Notes under the pieces: generated by a model | What the model was told of the DNA's origin: nothing | Database searches by the model: none | What the model saw: only the letters and a program-made list of their open reading frames with translations | Origin: a virus | Virus record (IMG/VR): IMGVR_UViG_3300048028_000379 | Span: 1 to 24,042 of that record | Direction: 5' to 3' (one strand) | Length of the DNA: 24,042 nt | Part shown: piece after piece, positions 2,766 to 19,559 of the stretch | Layout: each line of letters starts with the position of its first letter | Numbering within the stretch: position 1 is the first letter of the stretch | Made by a program: the position numbers and the translations under genes

Positions 2766-3272
2766 TTAGCTCTCATCCTTGATTTTGTTGCGCGTATCAG
2801 CAATCTGCCTGATCTTCTCCTCGTCTTCCTTGGTAAGCAAAAACGATGCCTCCTGTTTAATTGGCCCCCCGGCCTTCCCGGTCAACTCGTTTCGACGGAA
2901 ATCAGAATACCTCTCTGGATGTAGCTTTGACAGGCTCCATTTAAGAGCGTCCACTTCAAGCCTAATCGCTTGCACCTTGGCGCTGGCTTCACCTGTGCCG
3001 GGCGCTCCTGTTGCGTTCTGAAATGCCTTCTGTGATAGCTCAATGAGCTTATCAAATAACACATCACCTTGGATTTTACGTGCTCGCGCGTATTGCTCCT
3101 TGAATCCTTCGCGATCATCCATTACCCATCCGAGCACTGAGCTAGCAGCAGGAAGGTGATCGTCTTTGCATATTGAGCGCAACGATTCTCCTTCAGCTAA
3201 ACGTGTCAGGATCTCGTCAGCCTTTTCCTCAGTATAAACTGTTTGACCTCCCCGCTTCCTCTTCTTCTCCAT
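2766..3272 (-). CDS. terS: Terminase small subunit
   Basis: A 168-residue DNA-recognition partner of the large subunit. The N-terminal 'YTEEKADEILTRLAEGESL' followed by 'RSICKDDHLPAASSVLGWV' is the helix-turn-helix pattern of phage small terminases. After it come 'FKEQYARARKIQGDVLFDKL', a helical oligomerization region, and an acidic C-terminus that probably contacts the large subunit. The gene ends exactly where terL begins (TAA then GTG) and starts six bases after the stop of the upstream small DNA-binding gene, so the three genes are one transcription unit. Family pattern and position agree. Confidence 0.9.
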   Translation of the reverse strand: MEKKRKRGGQTVYTEEKADEILTRLAEGESLRSICKDDHLPAASSVLGWVMDDREGFKEQYARARKIQGDVLFDKLIELSQKAFQNATGAPGTGEASAKVQAIRLEVDALKWSLSKLHPERYSDFRRNELTGKAGGPIKQEASFLLTKEDEEKIRQIADTRNKIKDES

Positions 3273-3277
3273 AACGC

Positions 3278-3472
3278 TTAAACGTTGATTGATGTCAGGA
3301 TCTTATCAGAAAGATAGACGCCTCTTGATTGGCTACCTCTTAGCCTGTCGATCTCAGCCCATATCTCTGGCTTCATGCTAACGGACCTTGTGACTACTGT
3401 TCTGCCCTTGCCTGATCCTTTGGGTCTGCCTGCCCCTTTGCGGGCTCCTCCATGTGTATTTGTTACCTTCAT
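3278..3472 (-). CDS. Small basic DNA-binding protein, ribbon-helix-helix-like
   Basis: A 64-residue protein whose N-terminus carries a glycine/arginine-rich 'GGARKGAGRPKGSGKGR' stretch, like the AT-hook-type leaders seen on many small phage and plasmid proteins. It is followed by 'SVSMKPEIWAEIDRLRG' and 'SRGVYLSDKI', which fits a beta strand plus two helices of a ribbon-helix-helix fold. It directly precedes terS and is likely co-transcribed with it. Its ATG is only five bases past the T-tract of an intrinsic terminator, so it must be expressed from read-through or from a start inside that leader. It could regulate packaging genes or bind the packaging site; both ideas are inference. Confidence 0.65.
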   Translation of the reverse strand: MKVTNTHGGARKGAGRPKGSGKGRTVVTRSVSMKPEIWAEIDRLRGSQSRGVYLSDKILTSINV

Positions 3473-3477
3473 AATAT

Positions 3478-3500
3478 AAAAAATCCCCGTCTTTCCGGGG
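3478..3500 (-). terminator. Intrinsic terminator closing the cassette array
   Basis: Read on the minus strand: CCCCG, loop GAAAGA, CGGGG, then A and six T. It ends transcription coming from the 3603-4115 gene and from the orphan promoter-like site at 3567-3595. It lies right in front of the next start codon at 3472, so partial read-through would act as an attenuator for the packaging genes. Confidence 0.75.
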
Positions 3501-3560
3501 TGTCAAAGTTAGTTTAAAATCGTCTTAAAGATCGGTAGTAGGATGCCAGCCGTCTTGATG
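3480..3560 (-). ncRNA. Candidate short untranslated transcript between orphan promoter and terminator
   Basis: If the promoter-like site at 3567-3595 is active, it would produce an RNA of roughly 80-90 nt ending at the 3478-3500 terminator. The stretch contains no ATG-started frame of useful length. It may be a small RNA, a leader for the 3472 gene, or what is left of a cassette that lost its gene. No RNA family was recognised. Confidence 0.3.
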
Positions 3561-3566
3561 TTTTTA

Positions 3567-3595
3567 AGCAAAGCGCATTTCTTGATTTGCGTCAA
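3567..3595 (-). promoter_or_regulatory. Promoter-like site C of the TTGAC-N3-AATCAAG family (orphan)
   Basis: On the minus strand, TTGACG then a 17-base spacer then TTTGCT. The spacer begins with the conserved AATCAAG block (3581-3587). It shares exact -35-to-block spacing with the sites at 4586-4614, 4125-4153 and 19302-19330, and the TTTGCTT hexamer position is identical to the 4586-4614 site. Unlike the others, no start codon follows at the expected distance. Confidence 0.5.
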
Positions 3596-3602
3596 TGACC
3601 AA

Positions 3603-4115
3603 TTACACGAATTTCTTCCAATCCTTAGCGGCAAAAGTTTGGCCCTTATGATTTTCGTAACGGACAACCGACCTAAGTTGGTTACCAGATGCGTCGATGA
3701 TTGTCTCGGTGTATCTGGTTTTGATACTAGGATGAAAAGCGCCGAATTCGTGAGATACCGCTGTTTGCAATCTAAAATCTCCGGGGTAGCGATCCACAAA
3801 CGTGTGACGGTTTGACGGCTTTGGTTTGCTGACAATTATCCAATTATCTAAAGTTGGATCAACACCCTCAAAGCAATCTTTTACTTCCTCGGTTCCAATC
3901 ACAAATTCTGAGAAATAATCATCTTTCCGAGTAATTGCTTTAGCAAAGGCAATGGGATCAATTTCATGCGTAAGGAGAAACGTATTGCCTCCTTTGTTTT
4001 TCCAATATTGAGGGCATTCGCCTTCACCATCCCAATCGTGAGCCCCGTAGTTTTCGATAATTTGGGTAAAAATCTGGGTTACTTTAGGGGCTTCGGTAGT
4101 AGTTGTATTTGTCAT
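3603..4115 (-). CDS. Orphan accessory protein in self-contained cassette (170 aa)
   Basis: A soluble 170-residue protein of unknown function, started at the ATG at 4115; an upstream in-frame ATG at 4166 lies inside the promoter-like element and would add 17 unlikely residues. A GGAG precedes the chosen start. The N-terminus 'MTNTTTTEAPKVTQIFT' matches that of the neighbouring cassette gene at 4576 almost codon for codon, while the core is different. The body contains 'ECPQYWKNKGGNTFLLTHEI' and the C-terminus ends in 'NHKGQTFAAKDWKKFV'. No membrane segment or catalytic motif is evident. Its own promoter-like site (4125-4153) and flanking terminators make it moron-like. A counter-defence or host-modifying role is possible but unproven. 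Confidence 0.75.
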   Translation of the reverse strand: MTNTTTTEAPKVTQIFTQIIENYGAHDWDGEGECPQYWKNKGGNTFLLTHEIDPIAFAKAITRKDDYFSEFVIGTEEVKDCFEGVDPTLDNWIIVSKPKPSNRHTFVDRYPGDFRLQTAVSHEFGAFHPSIKTRYTETIIDASGNQLRSVVRYENHKGQTFAAKDWKKFV

Positions 4116-4124
4116 AACTCCAGA

Positions 4125-4153
4125 AGGGTAGGCGCTCACTTGATTCCTGTCCA
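4125..4153 (-). promoter_or_regulatory. Promoter-like site D of the TTGAC-N3-AATCAAG family
   Basis: On the minus strand, TGGACA, a 17-base spacer containing AATCAAG (4139-4145), then TACCCT. The conserved block ends 24 bases before the start codon at 4115, exactly as in the 4586-4614 site relative to 4576. The -10 hexamer is weak, so an activator or a phage-specific factor could be needed. Confidence 0.55.
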
Positions 4154-4174
4154 CAATAAAAAGCATCTAGGCAC

Positions 4175-4199
4175 AAAAAAACCGGGGTATTACCCCCGG
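4175..4199 (-). terminator. Intrinsic terminator after the 4247-4576 cassette
   Basis: On the minus strand, CCGGGG, a short GTAATA loop, CCCCGG, then seven T. It insulates the upstream cassette from the promoter-like site at 4125-4153, which begins 22 bases further on. Confidence 0.85.
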
Positions 4200-4246
4200 C
4201 CTTGCGGCAAACGTCTGCCCTTTTTGGTTTTTGATGAGGGTGGTTC
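4200..4246 (-). pseudogene. 3' coding remnant related to the C-terminus of the neighbouring cassette gene
   Basis: Directly after the stop of the 4247-4576 gene, in another frame, the minus strand still encodes 'KNQKGQTFAAR' (about 4200-4232). This matches 'ENHKGQTFAAK' near the C-terminus of the 3603-4115 product, and the DNA is also alike. It suggests the 4247-4576 cassette once held a gene related to its neighbour along its whole length and that the middle was replaced, leaving the tail end untranslated. Confidence 0.5.
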
Positions 4247-4576
4247 TTAAAACGGGCAATCAGCCCACTTTAAATCATACGCCGCTTTCGCTTCTGCTTC
4301 ATCCGAAAGAATCTTGGCAATCCGGGCGTCTTCCGCTTCCCGCTCTTTATCTGTAAGTGCCGCCCGTCTGGCCTTTTCTTCAATAACACTGTCACGTTTT
4401 TCTTCCAAAAACTCTTCATATGTTGGCGAAGGGTCTAAACCAGCGAAACGTTCTTTGTTATAATCGTAATCAGAAAAATCTAGTGGTTCGTAATCTAATG
4501 TCTTGAATAAGTTCATTTTCTTGTTTGGGGTAAAAATCTGGGTTGTTTTGTGGGCTTCGTTAGTTGTATTTTTCAT
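4247..4576 (-). CDS. Orphan acidic accessory protein in self-contained cassette (109 aa)
   Basis: A 109-residue acidic, mostly helical protein started at the ATG at 4576; the in-frame start at 4630 would put the promoter-like element inside the gene. The leader 'MKNTTNEAHKTTQIFT' pairs with that of the 3603-4115 product: 42 of 48 aligned bases are identical, plus one inserted codon. After it come 'LDYEPLDFSDYDYNKERFAG' and a highly charged helix with 'TDKEREAEDARIAKIL'. No known domain is recognised. It has its own promoter-like site and terminator and sits between the replication operon and the terminase genes. The high acidity would suit a protein or DNA mimic, but this is only a suggestion. 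Confidence 0.75.
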   Translation of the reverse strand: MKNTTNEAHKTTQIFTPNKKMNLFKTLDYEPLDFSDYDYNKERFAGLDPSPTYEEFLEEKRDSVIEEKARRAALTDKEREAEDARIAKILSDEAEAKAAYDLKWADCPF

Positions 4577-4585
4577 AACAACCAA

Positions 4586-4614
4586 AGCAAACACCAAACC
4601 TTGATTAAGGTCAA
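4586..4614 (-). promoter_or_regulatory. Promoter-like site B of the TTGAC-N3-AATCAAG family
   Basis: On the minus strand, TTGACC, a 17-base spacer containing AATCAAG (4600-4606), then TTTGCT. The bases ACCTTAATCAAGGT form a near-palindrome, so the block could also be an operator. The first 18 bases match the 19302 site at 16 positions. The start codon follows nine bases after the -10-like hexamer. Confidence 0.6.
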
Positions 4615-4642: not shown

Positions 4643-4897
4643 TTATTTTTTGGGCTTTAAAGTAAGCTCGCCTTTTAGTCCCGTCTCAAAACCTAGCGCG
4701 CAATAAGCTGCGATAATTGTATCACGCCGGGCGATCGCCTCATCAAGATCTCTAGTTCTCAGCCTGACTTTAATTCGTTTACCGACGACCTTAGTTGACC
4801 AAATAACTGTGACTCGCAGAAAGTAGCCCCGCCCTTCTTCCCAAGAGACATGATGCTCCTTTCTTAAATGGCTAAGGCTCTCTTCGGGGTCTGACAT
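4643..4897 (-). CDS. Small protein resembling an AP2/integrase arm-type DNA-binding domain
   Basis: An 84-residue basic protein. The core 'GYFLRVTVIWSTKVVGKRIK' followed by 'VRLRTRDLDEAIARRDTIIA' has the three-strand plus helix pattern of AP2-like or arm-type DNA-binding domains found at the N-terminus of tyrosine recombinases. No recombinase catalytic domain follows. The start ATG overlaps the stop of the upstream gene by one base (TAATG), so it is the last gene of the coupled replication operon. Domain resemblance is by pattern only. Confidence 0.65.
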   Translation of the reverse strand: MSDPEESLSHLRKEHHVSWEEGRGYFLRVTVIWSTKVVGKRIKVRLRTRDLDEAIARRDTIIAAYCALGFETGLKGELTLKPKK

Positions 4898-7491: not shown

Positions 7492-7895
7492 TTGCGCCCC
7501 CCTTTCTGCTCAAACGCTCCGGCTTCCGTAATCGTTAGCTCTACCGCTGGCCCTTGCTCGCGCCTTGTAGAGTCCTGATCTGAAGACGTTCGCTTAATGA
7601 ATGTCATAGAGTCATCAGTAAACCATCCGCAAGCAACCAGAGCGTCTTCTAGCTGCTTATAGTTGCCACGCAGCACGCTGCTAGAGTCCCAGAACCTTTG
7701 ACCTTTGCCTAGGACACGCACAACGTGAACACTTACCGGGAACAGGTAAGGAGTCCTTACCAATCCAAGAGATCTAATCTCAAACTCAAACCGTTTCCGA
7801 TCTTTTGCCGACCCATGCCATGACCGCCCTTGACCGTTGTTTTTGTTGGTAATCTCAAACGGCAGAAAGACGGTTTCTGTAAAAACATCATTCAT
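7488..7895 (-). CDS. RusA-like Holliday junction resolvase
   Basis: A 135-residue protein that probably cuts recombination junctions. RusA-type features are the acidic set D70 (FWDSSS), N78/K80 (RGNYKQLEDAL), D84 and the D94-D95 pair (WFTDDS), matching the family pattern of D-x-DN-x-x-K...DAL...DD. The start is the ATG at 7895, preceded by a good Shine-Dalgarno AAAGGAGG; an earlier in-frame start at 7916 would bury that site. It overlaps the exonuclease gene by eight bases. Together with exonuclease and annealase it forms a recombination set. Confidence 0.78.
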   Translation of the reverse strand: MNDVFTETVFLPFEITNKNNGQGRSWHGSAKDRKRFEFEIRSLGLVRTPYLFPVSVHVVRVLGKGQRFWDSSSVLRGNYKQLEDALVACGWFTDDSMTFIKRTSSDQDSTRREQGPAVELTITEAGAFEQKGGRK

Positions 7896-9087
7896 TAGCG
7901 CCTCCTTTCGGCTCAATGCCTGCCAGTTCTTGGATCATGTAAGAAATTGACGCCGGAAACAGCGGATCGAGTAAAACCGAATCAATGCAAGTCTTCCAAG
8001 CGTCCTTTTCGCCTTTGCGATCAGCAAGGTATCGTTTGCAGACATCTTTGAGCGCCATATCAGCGCAATGCCAGCCAGCGACTAGATGCGCGTTAGGAAT
8101 CTCATACGGGTAAGCCTCAAAAGGTGCAGTTGTTTCTTGAGCAAGTAATACCGCTTTCCGCTTCTCAGATAGGCTGTAAAGCTCACAAAGATCTTTTGGC
8201 ACTTTGGTCGCTAATTGCCTGAGCATTTCCAAGTAAATGGCCATCGAAAAGAAATACCCTCGCTTGATTGATTCCTTGCTGAAATCCTCAATATGGATAG
8301 AGCGGCAAGTCTTGTAATCGTGGAGCGTGTCGCCCTTGAGGACAAGATCAGGCCGACCTTTCATCTGCACCGGGATAGTCACACCGGGGGCGACCGTAAT
8401 ATCAACAACGCAGAAAATGCTGACCTCAACCCGTTTTTCTTTTTGGTCAATGTCTGCAAGAACTTCCCTAGCCTCGTAGTTCATCGGCGCATAATCCAGC
8501 GCGTCCTTCATGCCAATAACAGTCTTGTGGTCGCTATAGCTATCATCAAGCACCAGAGCGGTCTCTGATAGGTCTAGCATCTCTTTAGAGTTCTTGTTTA
8601 GACCAGAATCAGCGGCCAGCTCTCTCTCAATGCGTGACTTAATCAAAACCTTTTGCTCTGACTCGTCAGGAGTGCGGTTATTGTCTGCCTTGAATGCTTT
8701 GGCTTCGGCAAAATTACACATAAATTTGCGCGCTGAATAATCCGAAAAAAGCTGGTCACGTTTGCGTTCTAGTCTTGACGCTTCCATCTCTTTGCGGCGT
8801 TCGTCGTTGATCACGATAAACTTGTCAGACTCAAGGATTAGCCTGTGCGCCAGCGTCCCAAGACCTAGAGACTTGGATCGTTTGTTTTCGATTTCTCCGG
8901 CAAGGTAGGAGCGCAGACGAGCAGCAGAGCCTTTTGGCTCGCCAAACCCGCCAAGGTCTTCGACTGCTTTCTTGAGGCCGCTAGGTGACAATCCGTCAGC
9001 AGATCGATACTCAGTGTCTGGCATACCGATCACAATCTCGTTGCGCGGATTAGTCGGATAGATAATGTTTTCAAATGGGTCTTTCAT
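7888..9087 (-). CDS. Exonuclease VIII-like PD-(D/E)XK nuclease
   Basis: A 399-residue nuclease that likely chews 5' ends to give single-stranded DNA for annealing. Motifs: 'LSPSGLKKAVEDLGG' near 33-47, a conserved histidine in GTLAHRL (H81), E221 in 'VEVSIF', D247 in KGRPD, and D257-Y-K259 in 'LHDYKT', followed by 'GYFFSMAIYLEML' resembling the Q/Y helix. This is the active-site order of RecE/exonuclease VIII and related phage nucleases. The partner ERF annealase is two genes upstream. The start overlaps the upstream stop (ATGA). Confidence 0.88.
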   Translation of the reverse strand: MKDPFENIIYPTNPRNEIVIGMPDTEYRSADGLSPSGLKKAVEDLGGFGEPKGSAARLRSYLAGEIENKRSKSLGLGTLAHRLILESDKFIVINDERRKEMEASRLERKRDQLFSDYSARKFMCNFAEAKAFKADNNRTPDESEQKVLIKSRIERELAADSGLNKNSKEMLDLSETALVLDDSYSDHKTVIGMKDALDYAPMNYEAREVLADIDQKEKRVEVSIFCVVDITVAPGVTIPVQMKGRPDLVLKGDTLHDYKTCRSIHIEDFSKESIKRGYFFSMAIYLEMLRQLATKVPKDLCELYSLSEKRKAVLLAQETTAPFEAYPYEIPNAHLVAGWHCADMALKDVCKRYLADRKGEKDAWKTCIDSVLLDPLFPASISYMIQELAGIEPKGGANE

Positions 9088-9326
9088 AGATTTAGTAGTT
9101 CGTTAATTTTTTCTTCGTTAATTTCGTCATGGTCAATTGCCTCGCTCACTTCAATCCAAAACTCTAGACCTTCCTTAGTTTTAGACCACTCAGCAAAGCT
9201 TGCAACAGCGTCAAAGATAGAATCAACCCTAGCCGTAAATCGCTCAGGGTTGGCTTGACGTATTGCTCTCGTCGCGAGTGGTTCGGGTAGAATGCTCAAG
9301 GCTTCAGCCAGTGTGCGTTTTCTCAT
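9084..9326 (-). CDS. Small acidic hypothetical protein of the recombination operon
   Basis: An 80-residue, mostly helical protein ('MRKRTLAEALSILPEPLATR', then an acidic half with 'EAIDHDEINEEKINELLNL'). No domain is recognised. The start overlaps the annealase stop as TAATG and the end overlaps the exonuclease start as ATGA, so it is fully coupled between the two recombination proteins. It may be an accessory factor for one of them. Confidence 0.7.
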   Translation of the reverse strand: MRKRTLAEALSILPEPLATRAIRQANPERFTARVDSIFDAVASFAEWSKTKEGLEFWIEVSEAIDHDEINEEKINELLNL

Positions 9327-10075
9327 TATGATTCTGACGTAAATAGTTTGTCCCAGCCTGACACAATTCGACCTTTAACCTTGTCGCTTTGCTCTTCCCA
9401 GCCCCAACCGTCAAGATCAACGCCCTTTTTAGTCAAAGCTGCATTAAGCTGATCGCTGGTCACGCCTGCGCGCTCCATCTGCAACTTAATAGCATCGTCA
9501 ACGGTTGTCTGTGTAACCGTGTCGGGCTTTGGTAAAACGCCATCGGTGTCGTCGTCAGTGAAGACAAGCCCGAGCGCGGCCTTCAAAGCGTAGCGTTCGC
9601 CGTAGGTGTTTGTGATGCCCCCGGCTTGAATGTCGCTCGTGAGCTGGCTTTGAGGTTTCGCAAATGGGATTGGGATCGTGGTTTCTGGGAAAGTAAAACC
9701 TGAGATATGCAAGACCCGGCAGATCGTGATCTGTTTGTTGTTTTGGATTTCGTGGGAGAAAGTCCAACTCAACCCGTGCTTGTCTGCGTAGGGTTTTACG
9801 AACCTGACAAGATCATCCATTGCTGAATACCTAAATGCAACCTGACCGCCGCGAGTTTTAGCGCCGTCCCTCATTTTAGGGATCACCGGAACCTCTTGCT
9901 TGAACAGGGCTAAATCCCGATAAGCCTCATCGCGTGCTTGTCGATCCTTTTCTTGATTGTGCAACTTAACAAGCTGCTCAAGCTTATTAGCGTCAACCTC
10001 TGGACTCTTGGCAAGTTCAAGGATAAGGGCAAGCTGAGAATCAGCTTCTGTCTGTTGTGTTATAATTTCACTCAT
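9326..10075 (-). CDS. erf: ERF-family single-strand annealing protein
   Basis: A 249-residue recombinase that anneals complementary single strands. The ERF core is visible as 'FRYSAMDDLVRFVKPYADKH' with 'GLSWTF', then 'PQSQLTSDIQAGGITNTYGE' and 'RYALKAALGLVFTDDDTDG', the family's most conserved stretch. The C-terminus is a short linker and helices. The leader reads ACACTAAAACT before the ATG, with no Shine-Dalgarno sequence. It heads the recombination genes, with a small membrane protein gene just upstream. Confidence 0.92.
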   Translation of the reverse strand: MSEIITQQTEADSQLALILELAKSPEVDANKLEQLVKLHNQEKDRQARDEAYRDLALFKQEVPVIPKMRDGAKTRGGQVAFRYSAMDDLVRFVKPYADKHGLSWTFSHEIQNNKQITICRVLHISGFTFPETTIPIPFAKPQSQLTSDIQAGGITNTYGERYALKAALGLVFTDDDTDGVLPKPDTVTQTTVDDAIKLQMERAGVTSDQLNAALTKKGVDLDGWGWEEQSDKVKGRIVSGWDKLFTSES

Positions 10076-14063: not shown

Positions 14064-15719
14064 ATGGCTGGTAAAAATGTCGATATTAATTTTCGTACAC
14101 GCGCAGACTCTAAAGGAGCACGCGAAGCGGAAAAAGGCATCAAGAAAGTTGGGCGCACTGCCATCGACACAGACCGGGCGCTTGATAACGTAGAAGACTC
14201 TGCTGCCGATCTTAGACGCGAACTTGATAAGATTGACGGGCTTGACCCAAAGATCAGAACTGACGTTGATAAGCTTGCAGGATCGCTTGAAAAGACGGCT
14301 GTTAGCGGTCGCCAAATGGCAACCGCTCAGGGCAAAAACGCCAAATCGACAAAGAACGCCGGACTTGCAGCGTTAGAATTTTCGCGAGCCGTTGAAGATG
14401 CTCAGTATGGAATGAGAGGTGTGCTTAACAACATACCGCAACTTGTTCAGTTTATGGGTGGCGGCGCTGGTCTTGCTGGCGCTATCTCGTTGGCTGCTGT
14501 TGGATTGACGCAATTGGTTGAGGCTTTATCTAGATCAGGGAAGGAGATTTCAAACCTTTCGATGATTGTTGAGGTTGCGAGGGATCAAATCAACGAGCTT
14601 TACAAAATTGCGGCTAAAGATGGCACTTCGGCAATGCGCGCTCAAATTGCCGCCGTTGTCAGTTCTCTTGATGATCAAAGCGCAGCACTTGCAAGAAACA
14701 CAAGCCTAATCCAAAAAAAGCGACAGGCAGAGCTAGAACTTGCTAAGATTACGCAGGATTTAGAGCTGCAAGAAATTGCAAGGGCAGAAGGAGCTAAAGA
14801 AATTAGCCCCCAAGAGGCTGATGAAAGGCGCAAGCAGCTAGAAATTGCAAAGGTTCAAAGTGCTGCCGATGAAAAGATCTTACAGGGCAGGGAAAAGGTT
14901 GAACTACTTAACGAGCAAAGACTTGCGGCGGGAGCGGAACAAGTAAGGCTTGATGAGAGGATAGCTAAATTACAACAACAAGAGGCCGAAATTCGTGAAA
15001 GGCGTAACGCGCTGCAAAGTCGACGGGAGACTGCTGAGGAAGCAATAGCAAAAGGAGAGGAAGAGAAAAAACAAACGGGGTTTTTAGGTATTGGCTCCAA
15101 AGTTGCTATTGGAGAAGCTAGAATTGAAGGGGCTGAACTCATTTTTGGAGAAGAGCAGCGCAGGCAATTAATACAGGTTGAGGAACAGTTAAACCAGTTT
15201 GAAAGCTCTATTGAAACGCTAAAAGCTGCTAGGCAGGCCGCTGAAGAGCAGCAAATGAATTTAAGTGTTGCGCAGGGTGAGGCGTTTCAAATAGCTGAAT
15301 TAACGGAAACAACTGAGACGCAAGCGGTTGAACTTAAGACTAAGCTGATAGAAGCTAAAGCAAGCAATCAATTAGCAGCAGAAGCAAGAGCAGAGCTTTC
15401 TGCTGGTGTATCGGCGCTTGAGACTGCCGCAAAGGACACTTCGGCGATGACTGAAGCTGATCGCAAACGTGTGGAAATTGCCAACGAGCAATTCCGCAAA
15501 ATAATGGATGACGACACACTGACCGCTGAAGAACTAGGTCAGACGAGTCAAGTTCTTGGTCGCCTTACAACTACGGTAGTCGGAGCCACTAAGGAAAATA
15601 CCTTGATGATCGACCGCTTGCAAAGCACGGTTGACCAATTGACCCAGACAATAGCGACAACAAAAACCAAAAATATCCAATTGACTGAGCGAGTCAATAA
15701 CCAGAATCCCCGGAGATGA
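14064..15719 (+). CDS. Tape measure protein
   Basis: A 551-residue, largely helical protein that sets tail length and is later ejected. It has an N-terminal charged domain ('VDINFRTRADSKGAREAEKG'), a hydrophobic segment around residues 130-155 ('GGAGLAGAISLAAVGLTQLV'), and a very long coiled-coil region rich in A, E, K and Q. With the usual 0.15 nm per residue, a tail of about 80 nm is expected. It overlaps the hub start by four bases (ATGA). The short length suggests a compact siphovirus tail. Confidence 0.82.
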   Translation: MAGKNVDINFRTRADSKGAREAEKGIKKVGRTAIDTDRALDNVEDSAADLRRELDKIDGLDPKIRTDVDKLAGSLEKTAVSGRQMATAQGKNAKSTKNAGLAALEFSRAVEDAQYGMRGVLNNIPQLVQFMGGGAGLAGAISLAAVGLTQLVEALSRSGKEISNLSMIVEVARDQINELYKIAAKDGTSAMRAQIAAVVSSLDDQSAALARNTSLIQKKRQAELELAKITQDLELQEIARAEGAKEISPQEADERRKQLEIAKVQSAADEKILQGREKVELLNEQRLAAGAEQVRLDERIAKLQQQEAEIRERRNALQSRRETAEEAIAKGEEEKKQTGFLGIGSKVAIGEARIEGAELIFGEEQRRQLIQVEEQLNQFESSIETLKAARQAAEEQQMNLSVAQGEAFQIAELTETTETQAVELKTKLIEAKASNQLAAEARAELSAGVSALETAAKDTSAMTEADRKRVEIANEQFRKIMDDDTLTAEELGQTSQVLGRLTTTVVGATKENTLMIDRLQSTVDQLTQTIATTKTKNIQLTERVNNQNPRR

Positions 15720-18697
15720 TTACTATTGCAGGAGAAGAAGGTAAAACGTTTGGGCCTGCACAAATTGATTTTGCAGAAATTGGAGCAAGCGGCTCATTAA
15801 ATTATCAATCGCTTGGTGTTGATGAATTAACTTTTTCAATCGAACCAGAGTATTTAAATGCTAGAGAGCAAGAAATTCCAGAAGAAGGGCAATATATTGA
15901 ACTGTTTGAAAGCTCACAAAGGATTTTTTGCGGGATTGTCACAAGCGTTCAAAACGAATGGGGGCAAGGCAACCTGTCGGTTGATATTACCGTCTCAGGT
16001 CCGTTTTGGTGGCTAGAACAAACTGCGCTTTCTGAAATTGTTGGTGTTGGGAGCGAGTCAAGCGAAAGACCGCAATTTAGATGCGAGATTGGAGGGGTAG
16101 AAAGCCACATTCGGCGGTTGTTTGACAGGATGCAAGATCTTGGTCTACCTGTTGCTCTTGGCGAAATGGACGCTTGTTATGATATTCCTACAACCACATT
16201 TCAAGATGCTTCGTTTGCAAGAGCCTTGTCTGAACTTCTTAGAATGGTACCTGATGCGGTCGGTTGGTTTGATTACTCAACAACTGGTCATCCGGAGTTT
16301 AGAGTTTCGCGAAGAATAAACGAAGAACTGCAAAAAATCTCAAGACCGGAAGACGCAACATTTAAGTATATTGGCAGCGATTTAGGCGCTCCGGGTAATT
16401 TAAAATTTCGAGGTATTGCAGAAAGTAATGGGAAAATTTTCTGCACTCCTTACAATAATAATCACATATTATTGATTGATCCTCTAGATGATACTACTAG
16501 TGAAGCTGGTGTTGTTATTGCCAATTTAGGGGGTAATATGATTGACACAATCAACGCAAGTGACGGTTTTATTTATGCAAACCCTGCTAAATATAGTTCC
16601 TACTTTAGAATTAATCCCTCTGCTGCTGGTACCGTTAGCGACCCTTACATTAGCCCACCCCCTCGGGTTGCTACAGACTCAACTGATTCTTATTTAGGTT
16701 TTAACCCGGAAAATGTAAGAGGAGGCGCAGAAACCAATGGAATTATTTATGCGTCCGTTTATTCTAGAAGCGCAAGTGTAAACAATGGTAAACCATACGT
16801 TTTAAAAGTTGATACTAATGCAAGTAGTTTATTAAACCACCAGTCTCCTTATGGAAGAGATTTACTAGATATAAATTTTCCTGTTGACAATAACGGGAAT
16901 AGAACTGGCGGTATTTATGAAGTTCGCCCAAATTGGGAAACGGAAATTGCCGGGTCTGATTACACATGGATTTATGATAGCTATTATGGCGCTACAAAAG
17001 CGGGAAACGGGAAAATTTATTTAACTCCATATGGTGCTGATAAAATAGTAATTGTTGATCCTGTAACTGATCCTGTAACTAATGTTACAACTGAGTCTGT
17101 TTCAGTTGGAAGTGATCTAATAACAGGAAATGAGCCATATTATACTGCCGCAAGCTGGCCAACAAATCCAGCTCAAGTACAAACAACTACTCTTCATTTT
17201 ACTTATTGGAGTAAGTACTCTGGAGGCACTTATGTCCCAGAAAATGGTTGTATTTATTGTTTTCCTCGACACGCAAATGCAATTTTAAAAATAGATACAA
17301 GTAACGATTCAGCCGTTGAAATACCTTTGCCTCCTGCTTTACGTATTTATAAAGATACTTATTTAAGTGGAACAAATTTCCAATTTGACGGCTACAAATT
17401 AAAATCTTTTTCTTCTGTGTTAGGTCCAGATGGGAAAGTGTATTCAGTACCTGTAGAAATTCCATTTCTGTTTTGGATTGACCCTAAGACTGACGAAATA
17501 GGATACAAAGACATTTCTGTATTGCTTGAGCAATCGGGATCAAATGGAGTCGAGTGGTATTCGTATGGTGTAACATACAAAAACGCAATTTACTTTGCGC
17601 CAATGAAAGCTCGGTATGTTCTAAAACTAGTGTTTCAATATCAAAACGGTGCAGAATTGTTAACTTTAGGATCTGATCCAGTAACCTCTGGATCTTTAGA
17701 AGCTCAATACTCATTAAAGATTGATAGTGTTTCTGTTCCTTATGCTGAAAGGCTTCTTGATGGTTCAATCTCATTTAAAGAAATCTCAGCAGGCTCAACT
17801 TCTGGGACTCGTCAAATTGTTCCTATCAGCGGGCCTGAGCTTGTTGATTTCGTCCCTCCTGATCCAATCGATGGCGTCACAATAAGCACCGCCAACGCAA
17901 TGGCCAACTCGGTCACAGTGCAAAAGACAACGATTGAGAAATTGTTTCCTGTATGGTATCGATTTGAGTCAACTTATCCCTCAATAGCAGCAACAAGAAA
18001 TTTAAATCTTTGGTCTACTGATGCAACTTCACAACAATACTCTGGCGGAGTGACTCCGTTTATTAAATTAGAAGATGGCACAGATTTAGACATCAACACT
18101 CATAACCGTTGGGCTATTATTTACGATCCTGATTTAGAGGTTCCAAGTTGGTTATCTGATGTTGAATCAGTGCAAAAAGCAAGACTCGCAGGAACAGTTT
18201 GGATCTTTGAAGACAATGCCACTATCACAGATGATTGGATCGTTGATCTTATTAATGATTCTGATTTTGTCTTTAGAGTAGTAGGAGGGCCAAACAATAA
18301 TGACACCACTATCTTCTTTGATTTAGATCTTGAGATCCTTTTGCTTGACCGAGAATTGACCAATCAAACGTTTTACAAGCCACTGAGCTACATCTTTGAG
18401 ACTCCCCCGGCTGACTTTGCTGAGAACCTCAGAGCGGCGCAAAACTGGCTTCCTTATATTGGCAGCGTAAACCTAGAAGCAGAAAACCCGCCATTTGTAA
18501 GAAAGACGGGCTCGACGATCAACCTAGCAGGCGGCAGATCTGTCTGGGAGTCGATGGGAGGGCTTGTGCAGGGCGAGACGTTCGATTTGTTTACTAGAGA
18601 GCAAAGTTTATCCCTTGGCCTTCCTGAGCGGCTTACAGGCTCAACACCAGTAACAAGGCTTGAGCGATCCAGCTCTGATAGCCTTATCATCCTTTAG
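15716..18697 (+). CDS. Tail hub/tip protein with an inserted seven-repeat beta-propeller-like domain
   Basis: A 993-residue protein. Residues 1-220 read like the start of tail hub proteins ('VDELTFSIEPEYLNAREQEI', 'SQRIFCGIVTSVQ'); residues from about 645 onward return to hub-like sequence, ending 'ENLRAAQNWLPYIGSVNL' and 'WESMGGLVQGETFDLFTREQ', typical of hub C-termini. Between them (about 221-642) are seven repeats of the type G-K-I-Y-x-x-P-x6-V-L-x-I-D-P, starting near 239, 283, 341, 430, 510, 573 and 623. This is the layout of a seven-bladed propeller. The insert is visibly AT-richer (sampled lines about 33% GC) than the hub parts (47-55%). A surface-binding role for the insert is inferred. 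Confidence 0.8.
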   Translation: MITIAGEEGKTFGPAQIDFAEIGASGSLNYQSLGVDELTFSIEPEYLNAREQEIPEEGQYIELFESSQRIFCGIVTSVQNEWGQGNLSVDITVSGPFWWLEQTALSEIVGVGSESSERPQFRCEIGGVESHIRRLFDRMQDLGLPVALGEMDACYDIPTTTFQDASFARALSELLRMVPDAVGWFDYSTTGHPEFRVSRRINEELQKISRPEDATFKYIGSDLGAPGNLKFRGIAESNGKIFCTPYNNNHILLIDPLDDTTSEAGVVIANLGGNMIDTINASDGFIYANPAKYSSYFRINPSAAGTVSDPYISPPPRVATDSTDSYLGFNPENVRGGAETNGIIYASVYSRSASVNNGKPYVLKVDTNASSLLNHQSPYGRDLLDINFPVDNNGNRTGGIYEVRPNWETEIAGSDYTWIYDSYYGATKAGNGKIYLTPYGADKIVIVDPVTDPVTNVTTESVSVGSDLITGNEPYYTAASWPTNPAQVQTTTLHFTYWSKYSGGTYVPENGCIYCFPRHANAILKIDTSNDSAVEIPLPPALRIYKDTYLSGTNFQFDGYKLKSFSSVLGPDGKVYSVPVEIPFLFWIDPKTDEIGYKDISVLLEQSGSNGVEWYSYGVTYKNAIYFAPMKARYVLKLVFQYQNGAELLTLGSDPVTSGSLEAQYSLKIDSVSVPYAERLLDGSISFKEISAGSTSGTRQIVPISGPELVDFVPPDPIDGVTISTANAMANSVTVQKTTIEKLFPVWYRFESTYPSIAATRNLNLWSTDATSQQYSGGVTPFIKLEDGTDLDINTHNRWAIIYDPDLEVPSWLSDVESVQKARLAGTVWIFEDNATITDDWIVDLINDSDFVFRVVGGPNNNDTTIFFDLDLEILLLDRELTNQTFYKPLSYIFETPPADFAENLRAAQNWLPYIGSVNLEAENPPFVRKTGSTINLAGGRSVWESMGGLVQGETFDLFTREQSLSLGLPERLTGSTPVTRLERSSSDSLIIL

Positions 18698-19301: not shown

Positions 19302-19330
19302 TTGACACTAATCAAGGTTAGCTTATTCTA
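19302..19330 (+). promoter_or_regulatory. Promoter-like site A of the TTGAC-N3-AATCAAG family
   Basis: A perfect -35 TTGACA (19302-19307), the AATCAAG block (19310-19316), and a -10 of TATTCT at 16-base or ATTCTA at 17-base spacing. The ATG of the 58-residue gene at 19336 falls about where transcription should begin. Confidence 0.65.
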
Positions 19331-19335
19331 AGCAC

Positions 19336-19512
19336 ATGAAAGACATGAAGTCACTCATCGCAGCGGGAGATCTTAAAGTGATCTCAGGTATTAATTTTAA
19401 CGCAACCACTTTTGAGGTTGCTCCTTCTACTAAAGCAGGAAGGGCTTGGTTTGACGAAAACGTCAGCGAGTTAGCCAGCTCAATTAATGTGCTAAAATCA
19501 GCACTAGTTTAA
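19336..19512 (+). CDS. Orphan 58-residue protein in self-contained cassette
   Basis: A short frame between a promoter-like site and a strong terminator, on the strand opposite its neighbours. The product is soluble, with 'MKSLIAAGDLKVISGINFNA' and 'TTFEVAPSTKAGRAWFDENV', then a short helix. No domain is recognised. A second ATG lies three codons in. Its transcript probably has almost no 5' UTR. The shared control element ties it to the two cassette genes 15 kb away at 4115 and 4576. A moron-type accessory role is inferred from layout alone. Confidence 0.65.
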   Translation: MKDMKSLIAAGDLKVISGINFNATTFEVAPSTKAGRAWFDENVSELASSINVLKSALV

Positions 19513-19529
19513 AGGAAATAAAACTACAG

Positions 19530-19555
19530 GCCGGGGAGAAATCTCCGGCTTTTTT
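19530..19555 (+). terminator. Strong intrinsic terminator after the 58-residue gene
   Basis: GCCGGGGA, loop GAAA, TCTCCGGC (eight pairs, one G-U), then six T. It closes the cassette and lies just beyond the 3' end of the convergent metallophosphoesterase gene. Confidence 0.9.
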
Positions 19556-19559
19556 GTGT

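Follow-up and report, generated by a model that had tools for sequence, protein, structure and literature searches.

A probable moron-like accessory locus in which short genes vary between conserved promoter-like and terminator borders in an IMG/VR phage record

Morons, which are expressed on their own and commonly in the prophage, are known from the lambdoid phages HK97 and HK022 (Juhala et al. 2000, in the definition quoted in PMC4378225), and the way in which phages acquire or swap them has been termed mysterious (PMC4378225). Lambdoid phages have also been described as exchanging modules at short conserved sequences, as in HK620 (Clark et al. 2001, as cited in PMC2327257), and relaxed recombination is carried out by Rad52-like recombinases (PMC3945230). 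Pseudomonas Mu-like phages contain regions of genomic plasticity that include anti-CRISPR genes (PMC4378225). Here we describe a locus in a 24,042-base stretch of DNA, analysed in full and referred to as the window (IMG/VR virus record IMGVR_UViG_3300048028_000379, positions 1-24,042), that resembles each of these systems in part. As with morons, single short genes with a promoter-like element and a terminator lie between genes that adjoin each other in a relative, the cargo is lower in GC and is missing, by loss, from one close relative (L106), and a second slot is on the strand opposite to its neighbours. Unlike morons, which are described as being gained as whole units, the ORF appears to be exchanged while promoter and terminator stay, two slots share one 15-bp promoter element, and remnants of the previous occupant persist. 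The locus shares with lambdoid module exchange the short conserved sequences flanking swapped genes and an encoded Erf-type recombinase; it differs in having a promoter and a terminator as anchors, in that single genes of 75-170 aa are swapped and in that recombination is deduced from the products. Fixed places holding different small accessory ORFs in each phage recall the Mu-like plasticity regions, in which no shared flanks were recognised, whereas promoter element and terminator are conserved here. Integron-type gene cassettes have attC-like sites and an integrase gene, whereas the present borders are promoter and terminator; a non-exhaustive scan of the proteins found no integrase.

Relatives were collected by protein search, and the locus was covered in four related genomes including the window, all of them fragments or bins. 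Nucleotide identity to the window was 88-95% for L002/G001 in the main aligned blocks, 67-84% for L003/G002, and 94-95% over most of its match for L106, a contig binned with a Porticoccaceae MAG. Luteolibacter and Verrucomicrobiaceae contigs carry related terminases (60-65%), which indicates Verrucomicrobiota hosts, and the phage probably infects members of this phylum (Verrucomicrobia). A literature search on Verrucomicrobiota-linked phages returned almost nothing. In L111 other genes, one of which resembles a Dam-type methylase (named from sequence alone), lie between a gene homologous to the 84-aa one and the gene for the terminase small subunit. The ORF list of L087, whose terminase small subunit is 51% identical, gave no sign of the slot locus, and the 170-aa gene family and the second slot were absent from the four whole genomes behind L106, L107, L108 and L111. 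Features of the window are collected in Table 1.

Table 1. Positions of slot, cassette and flanking features in the window, with the evidence for each
Feature	Position	Strand	Evidence
Terminase small subunit, right flank	2766-3272	-	Family search
64-aa protein, candidate regulator	3278-3472	-	Basic tail and two helices
Terminator-like hairpin between third element and next gene	3485-3500	-	Hairpin analysis
Third promoter element TTGACGCAAATCAAG, inner edge of exchanged block	3581-3595	-	Exact-copy scan
Cassette-2 cargo, 170-aa ENYGAHDW-family protein	3603-4115	-	Family search, alignment, dN/dS, identity comparison
Cassette-2 promoter element TGGACAGGAATCAAG	4139-4153	-	Sequence comparison
Conserved terminator CAAGGCCGGGGGTAATACCCCGGTTTTTTTGTGCCTA, right swap border in all three filled sites	4168-4204	-	Slot alignment and hairpin analysis
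3' fossil of ENYGAHDW-family gene	4200-4231	-	Alignment; KGQTFAA in other frame at 4203-4223
Slot-1 cargo, 109-aa putative chimeric ORF	4247-4576	-	Comparison with 170-aa gene and relatives
Unrelated 89-aa core, charged, with own ATG at 4516 (MNLFKTL...KWADCPF)	4247-4516	-	Family and protein searches
Leader remnant of ENYGAHDW-family gene, N-terminus ending TQIFT	4525-4576	-	Repeat and alignment
Slot-1 promoter element TTGACCTTAATCAAG	4600-4614	-	Retained by L002; degenerate in L003
Conserved 84-aa gene, left flank of slot	4643-4897	-	Protein search and flank comparison
Exonuclease VIII-like protein, candidate Erf partner	7888-9087	-	Family search, E = 2.8e-24
Erf-like single-strand annealing protein, candidate exchange agent	9326-10075	-	Family search, E = 1.6e-26
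Second-slot promoter element TTGACACTAATCAAG, strand opposite to neighbouring genes	19302-19316	+	Exact-copy scan
Second-slot cargo, 58-aa ORF	19336-19512	+	Comparison with G001 and G002
Second-slot terminator (AGGCCGGGGAGAAATCTCCGGCTTTTTTG)	19528-19556	+	Hairpin analysis

The 109-aa unit consists, in order, of a leader remnant, an 89-aa core, a stop codon (4247-4249), a tail remnant that encodes KGQTFAA out of frame with the ORF, and a terminator. The leader is one copy of a 58-nt direct repeat (4061-4118 and 4525-4582). Gapped alignment of the two copies gave 48 identities in 58 positions (83% with gaps; blastn E = 6e-13); counted from the ATG there are 46 identical bases and one in-frame 3-nt gap, close to the 42 of 48 reported in a first-pass annotation of this DNA, which had also held that the two cores differ and that the KGQTFAA frame is a coding fossil. 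The cores of the 109-aa and 170-aa proteins indeed gave no useful alignment, as BLASTP returned only the leader extended through gaps (E = 0.047) and a chance match (E = 5.7). The fossil proved to be about 32 nt of homologous DNA, identical to the window's 170-aa gene at 26 of 33 positions (blastn E = 0.013). The L003 gene comes closer still, with a single mismatch and a 1-nt gap in 33 aligned columns; in each of three comparisons the match of the fossil was equalled in none of 2000 shuffles. Extending the fossil upstream (LRTTLIK against LRSVVRYE, with a match at LR) was rejected, as this alignment is one codon out of register. Leader and tail are thus both homologous to the 170-aa gene, in the same order, and both are nearer the L003 copy than the window's own gene.

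Neither the 109-aa ORF nor its core had a relative in viral_contigs or in the related records; phage records gave chance matches only, and Pfam, PHROGs, NCBIfam and PADLOC gave no match. The core was seen in the window record only. As none of the genomes found carries it intact, replacement of the middle is deduced from the remnants. These alignments support the interpretation of the 109-aa ORF as a chimera, in which an unrelated middle is enclosed by the two termini of an earlier copy of the 4115-type gene. This much of the earlier proposal, an ancient duplication followed by replacement of the middle, stands. Its first step is less certain: the L003-like remnants may reflect the ancestral state, so that the data do not separate a duplication in this lineage from an import out of a relative.

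The interval between the conserved 84-aa gene and the terminase genes had four different contents in the four related genomes, in agreement with the earlier suggestion of a cargo-swapping site. The window contains the 109-aa ORF and the 170-aa gene. The 170-aa gene is accompanied in L002 by a 75-aa ORF with a CHCSHDCC stretch, and in L003 by a 102-aa ORF resembling DUF3127 (E = 1.2e-15) and single-strand DNA binding proteins (phrog_4932, E = 1.9e-15). In L106 a 15-nt scar replaces positions 3638-4606 of the window (969 nt). At the scar, TTTTTTGTGCTTGAATG, which is part of the terminator, is followed by the final codons of the 170-aa gene; because this tail is still present, L106 represents a loss and not an original empty site.

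The left border extends from the promoter through ATGAAAA. Between the window and L002 it comprises 33 identical nt, a 3-nt difference and 22 identical nt; in L003 this border is degenerate. On the right the border is the terminator CAAGGCCGGGG...GTGCCTA, of which 37 nt are identical in the window and L002. The swaps in L002 and L003 span promoter/start codon to terminator CAAGGCCGGGG, and neither cargo has the TQIFT leader or the KGQTFAA tail. The first-pass view of leader and tail as the general exchange ends is therefore not supported; the 170-aa family has TQIFT as its N-terminus, and in viral contigs the tail pattern was confined to the 170-aa gene itself. When viral_contigs were scanned with the exact tail and terminator patterns for further genes that share them, only the two known relatives came up. 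Both slots of the window have a hairpin followed by a U tract, as does slot 1 of L002 and of L003 (shuffle z -2.2 to -4.0), and an Rfam search gave no match. Cargo GC was 0.40-0.43 versus 0.456 for the window and 0.47-0.50 for the flanking genes, a modest difference.

The 170-aa protein, by its sequence, is a member of a large unnamed marine-phage family, to which the slot leads. Its motif, TQxxENYGAHDWDGxGxCPQYWKxKGG, occurs in at least 599 viral-contig stretches, and in ENYGAHDW-type proteins (window 3603-4115; L002-L081) the N-terminal 65 residues are conserved and the C-terminus is variable. No significant Pfam, PHROG or NCBIfam model was found for the family; the 170-aa protein has no solved relative, and a fold search of PDB and BFVD with its predicted structure (pLDDT 78.7) gave nothing at E <= 0.001. 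A weak B3 match (E = 0.04-0.08) was set aside. The gene is under purifying selection (dN/dS ~0.1; 0.10-0.13). Alignment and the predicted structure place TQIFT at the family N-terminus, within the first beta strand, which means that the shared leader is no general tag.

In the 170-aa gene, identity was 88.7% between the window and L002, 86.7% between the window and L003, and 89.1% between L002 and L003. The five flanking genes measured were 90-96% identical between the window and L002 and 70-74% in both L003 pairs. Compared with L003, a block of raised identity extends from ~4204 (slot-1 terminator) to ~3545 (just past the third element), with 93-98% at its edges, and identity drops to 60-82% outside it. 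This terminator-to-promoter segment was thus exchanged among the window, L002 and L003 lineages, and the 170-aa cassette moves independently of its flanks. Comparison of the genomes shows the putative promoter and the terminator remaining in place around an ORF that has been replaced (slot 1), swapped for a diverged allele (170-aa gene) or lost (L106).

The elements of slot 1 and cassette 2 each stand 23 nt ahead of an ATG, consistent with the equal spacing noted before. Three exact copies of TTGACNNNAATCAAG were present in the window (slot-1, third and second-slot elements) against 0.02 expected, and none of 100 shuffles reached three. The -35 hexamer fits sigma-70; the -10 hexamers TTTGCT (17 nt after TTGACC in slot 1) and TACCCT are poor, and the elements were not called in a promoter scan. 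AATCAAG in the spacer is kept although the sequence around it differs, which suggests, speculatively, an additional protein contact in the putative promoter. The second-slot unit, which is oriented opposite to the neighbouring genes, is composed of the element, the 58-aa ORF and an GGCCGGGG-type terminator. Its cargo is 78 aa in G001, and in G002 it is 25 aa together with an opposite-strand 178-aa ORF; the corresponding elements are TTGACATTAATCATG and TTGACGAAAATCAAG. The 178-aa ORF (L095, downstream of 1501) contains a DFDLLKNGKKIEVKTKRR stretch reminiscent of PD-(D/E)XK nucleases.

The probable explanation for these results is a moron-like hypervariable accessory locus, placed between the replication/recombination operon and the terminase genes, in which two tandem cassettes of promoter element, short gene and terminator are reshuffled via their conserved promoter and terminator anchors. 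Plain tandem duplication of the 170-aa gene and decay by deletion and unrelated insertion, with no special exchange site, would leave leader and tail remnants in order and would be expected to produce the AAGG joint; that L002 and L003 carry quite different genes within the same borders, that the L106 slot is empty and that the 170-aa gene has a history different from its flanks make it improbable. Very unlikely is a regulatory role for the shared leader and promoter, with the N-terminal 16 codons forming a translation or targeting leader required by unrelated cargos. It would account for the frame kept despite the 3-nt gap and for the identical 23-nt spacing to the ATG, whereas the L002 and L003 cargos occupy the same place without this leader, TQIFT belongs to the 170-aa family itself as the first strand of its fold, and most family members elsewhere begin right at that strand.

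We attach hardly any credence to a chimeric assembly in which two phage populations were joined at the leader repeat. The restriction of the 109-aa core to the window record and the breaks of G005 near the slots would be in keeping with it. Against it, the leader copies differ (83% with gaps), so that joining by shared k-mers is unlikely, ordered remnants at both ends would not be expected, and independent variants exist in L002, L003 and L106. The G005 contig (L105, 16.7 kb; 90-93% identical to the window) stops short of slot 1, and its ends, at 1 and 16682, lie within tens of bases of both slots; circumstantially, this fits assemblies breaking where populations vary.

For the moron-like locus, the remnants suggest a series of steps. 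Slot 1 of the window would once have been occupied by a 170-aa gene copy, whose start codon (GTTATGA) was fused to the slot promoter and which was truncated close to its end (AAGG) where it met the slot terminator. The middle would then have given way to an unrelated 89-aa gene that brought its own ATG, leaving leader and tail behind. Such exchanges may proceed by recombination at short conserved anchors via the phage's Erf annealase and exonuclease, and the cargo genes would be optional accessories expressed from their own putative promoters. Rad52-like phage recombinases pair short, diverged sequences, with a reported minimum of 23-27 bp for Red-beta (PMC3945230), and RecET can join 5-13 bp, rarely (PMC2327257). 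The window-L002 anchors of 33 and 37 identical nt exceed the Red-beta minimum. The conserved anchors suit the 23-27 bp range and the start-codon joint the 5-13 bp range, with the 4-nt AAGG shorter still; since Erf-type pairing is not efficient at joints as short as GTTATGA and AAGG, some steps would need illegitimate joining. The small size, own terminators and low GC of the cargo and its natural absence from L106 would fit morons. Filled, re-filled, chimeric and emptied states are visible across four close relatives, with remnants at the joints, which makes single steps of the exchange legible and open to testing. The slot is also a place to seek small host-takeover or anti-defence genes in Verrucomicrobiota-linked phages.

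At 3485-3595 of the window, the third element is followed by ~80 nt without a long ORF and then by a terminator hairpin just before the 64-aa gene; a short RNA, an attenuator and an emptied cassette are all conceivable for this stretch. The 64-aa protein is, at low confidence and speculatively, compatible with a ribbon-helix-helix fold from its predicted helices. It is a doubtful possibility that TTGACnnnAATCAAG tags swap slots lineage-wide, as a common regulated promoter and landing homology, perhaps controlled by the adjacent ribbon-helix-helix-like protein. If true, the TTGACnnnAATCAAG system would represent integrase-free, promoter-guided cassettes, in which an ORF joined at the start codon is instantly and correctly expressed.

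Two further observations concern other parts of these genomes. Within the 993-aa tail-region ORF (15716-18697), ~1.34 kb (447 codons; window 16311-17651) is without counterpart in G001 and G002, and repeats in this segment (e.g. NNNHILLIDPLDD) look like a beta-propeller-type domain insertion. G001 (L101/L102) contains a 98% direct repeat (1-1416 versus 33874-35289) close to both contig ends and within two long ORFs.
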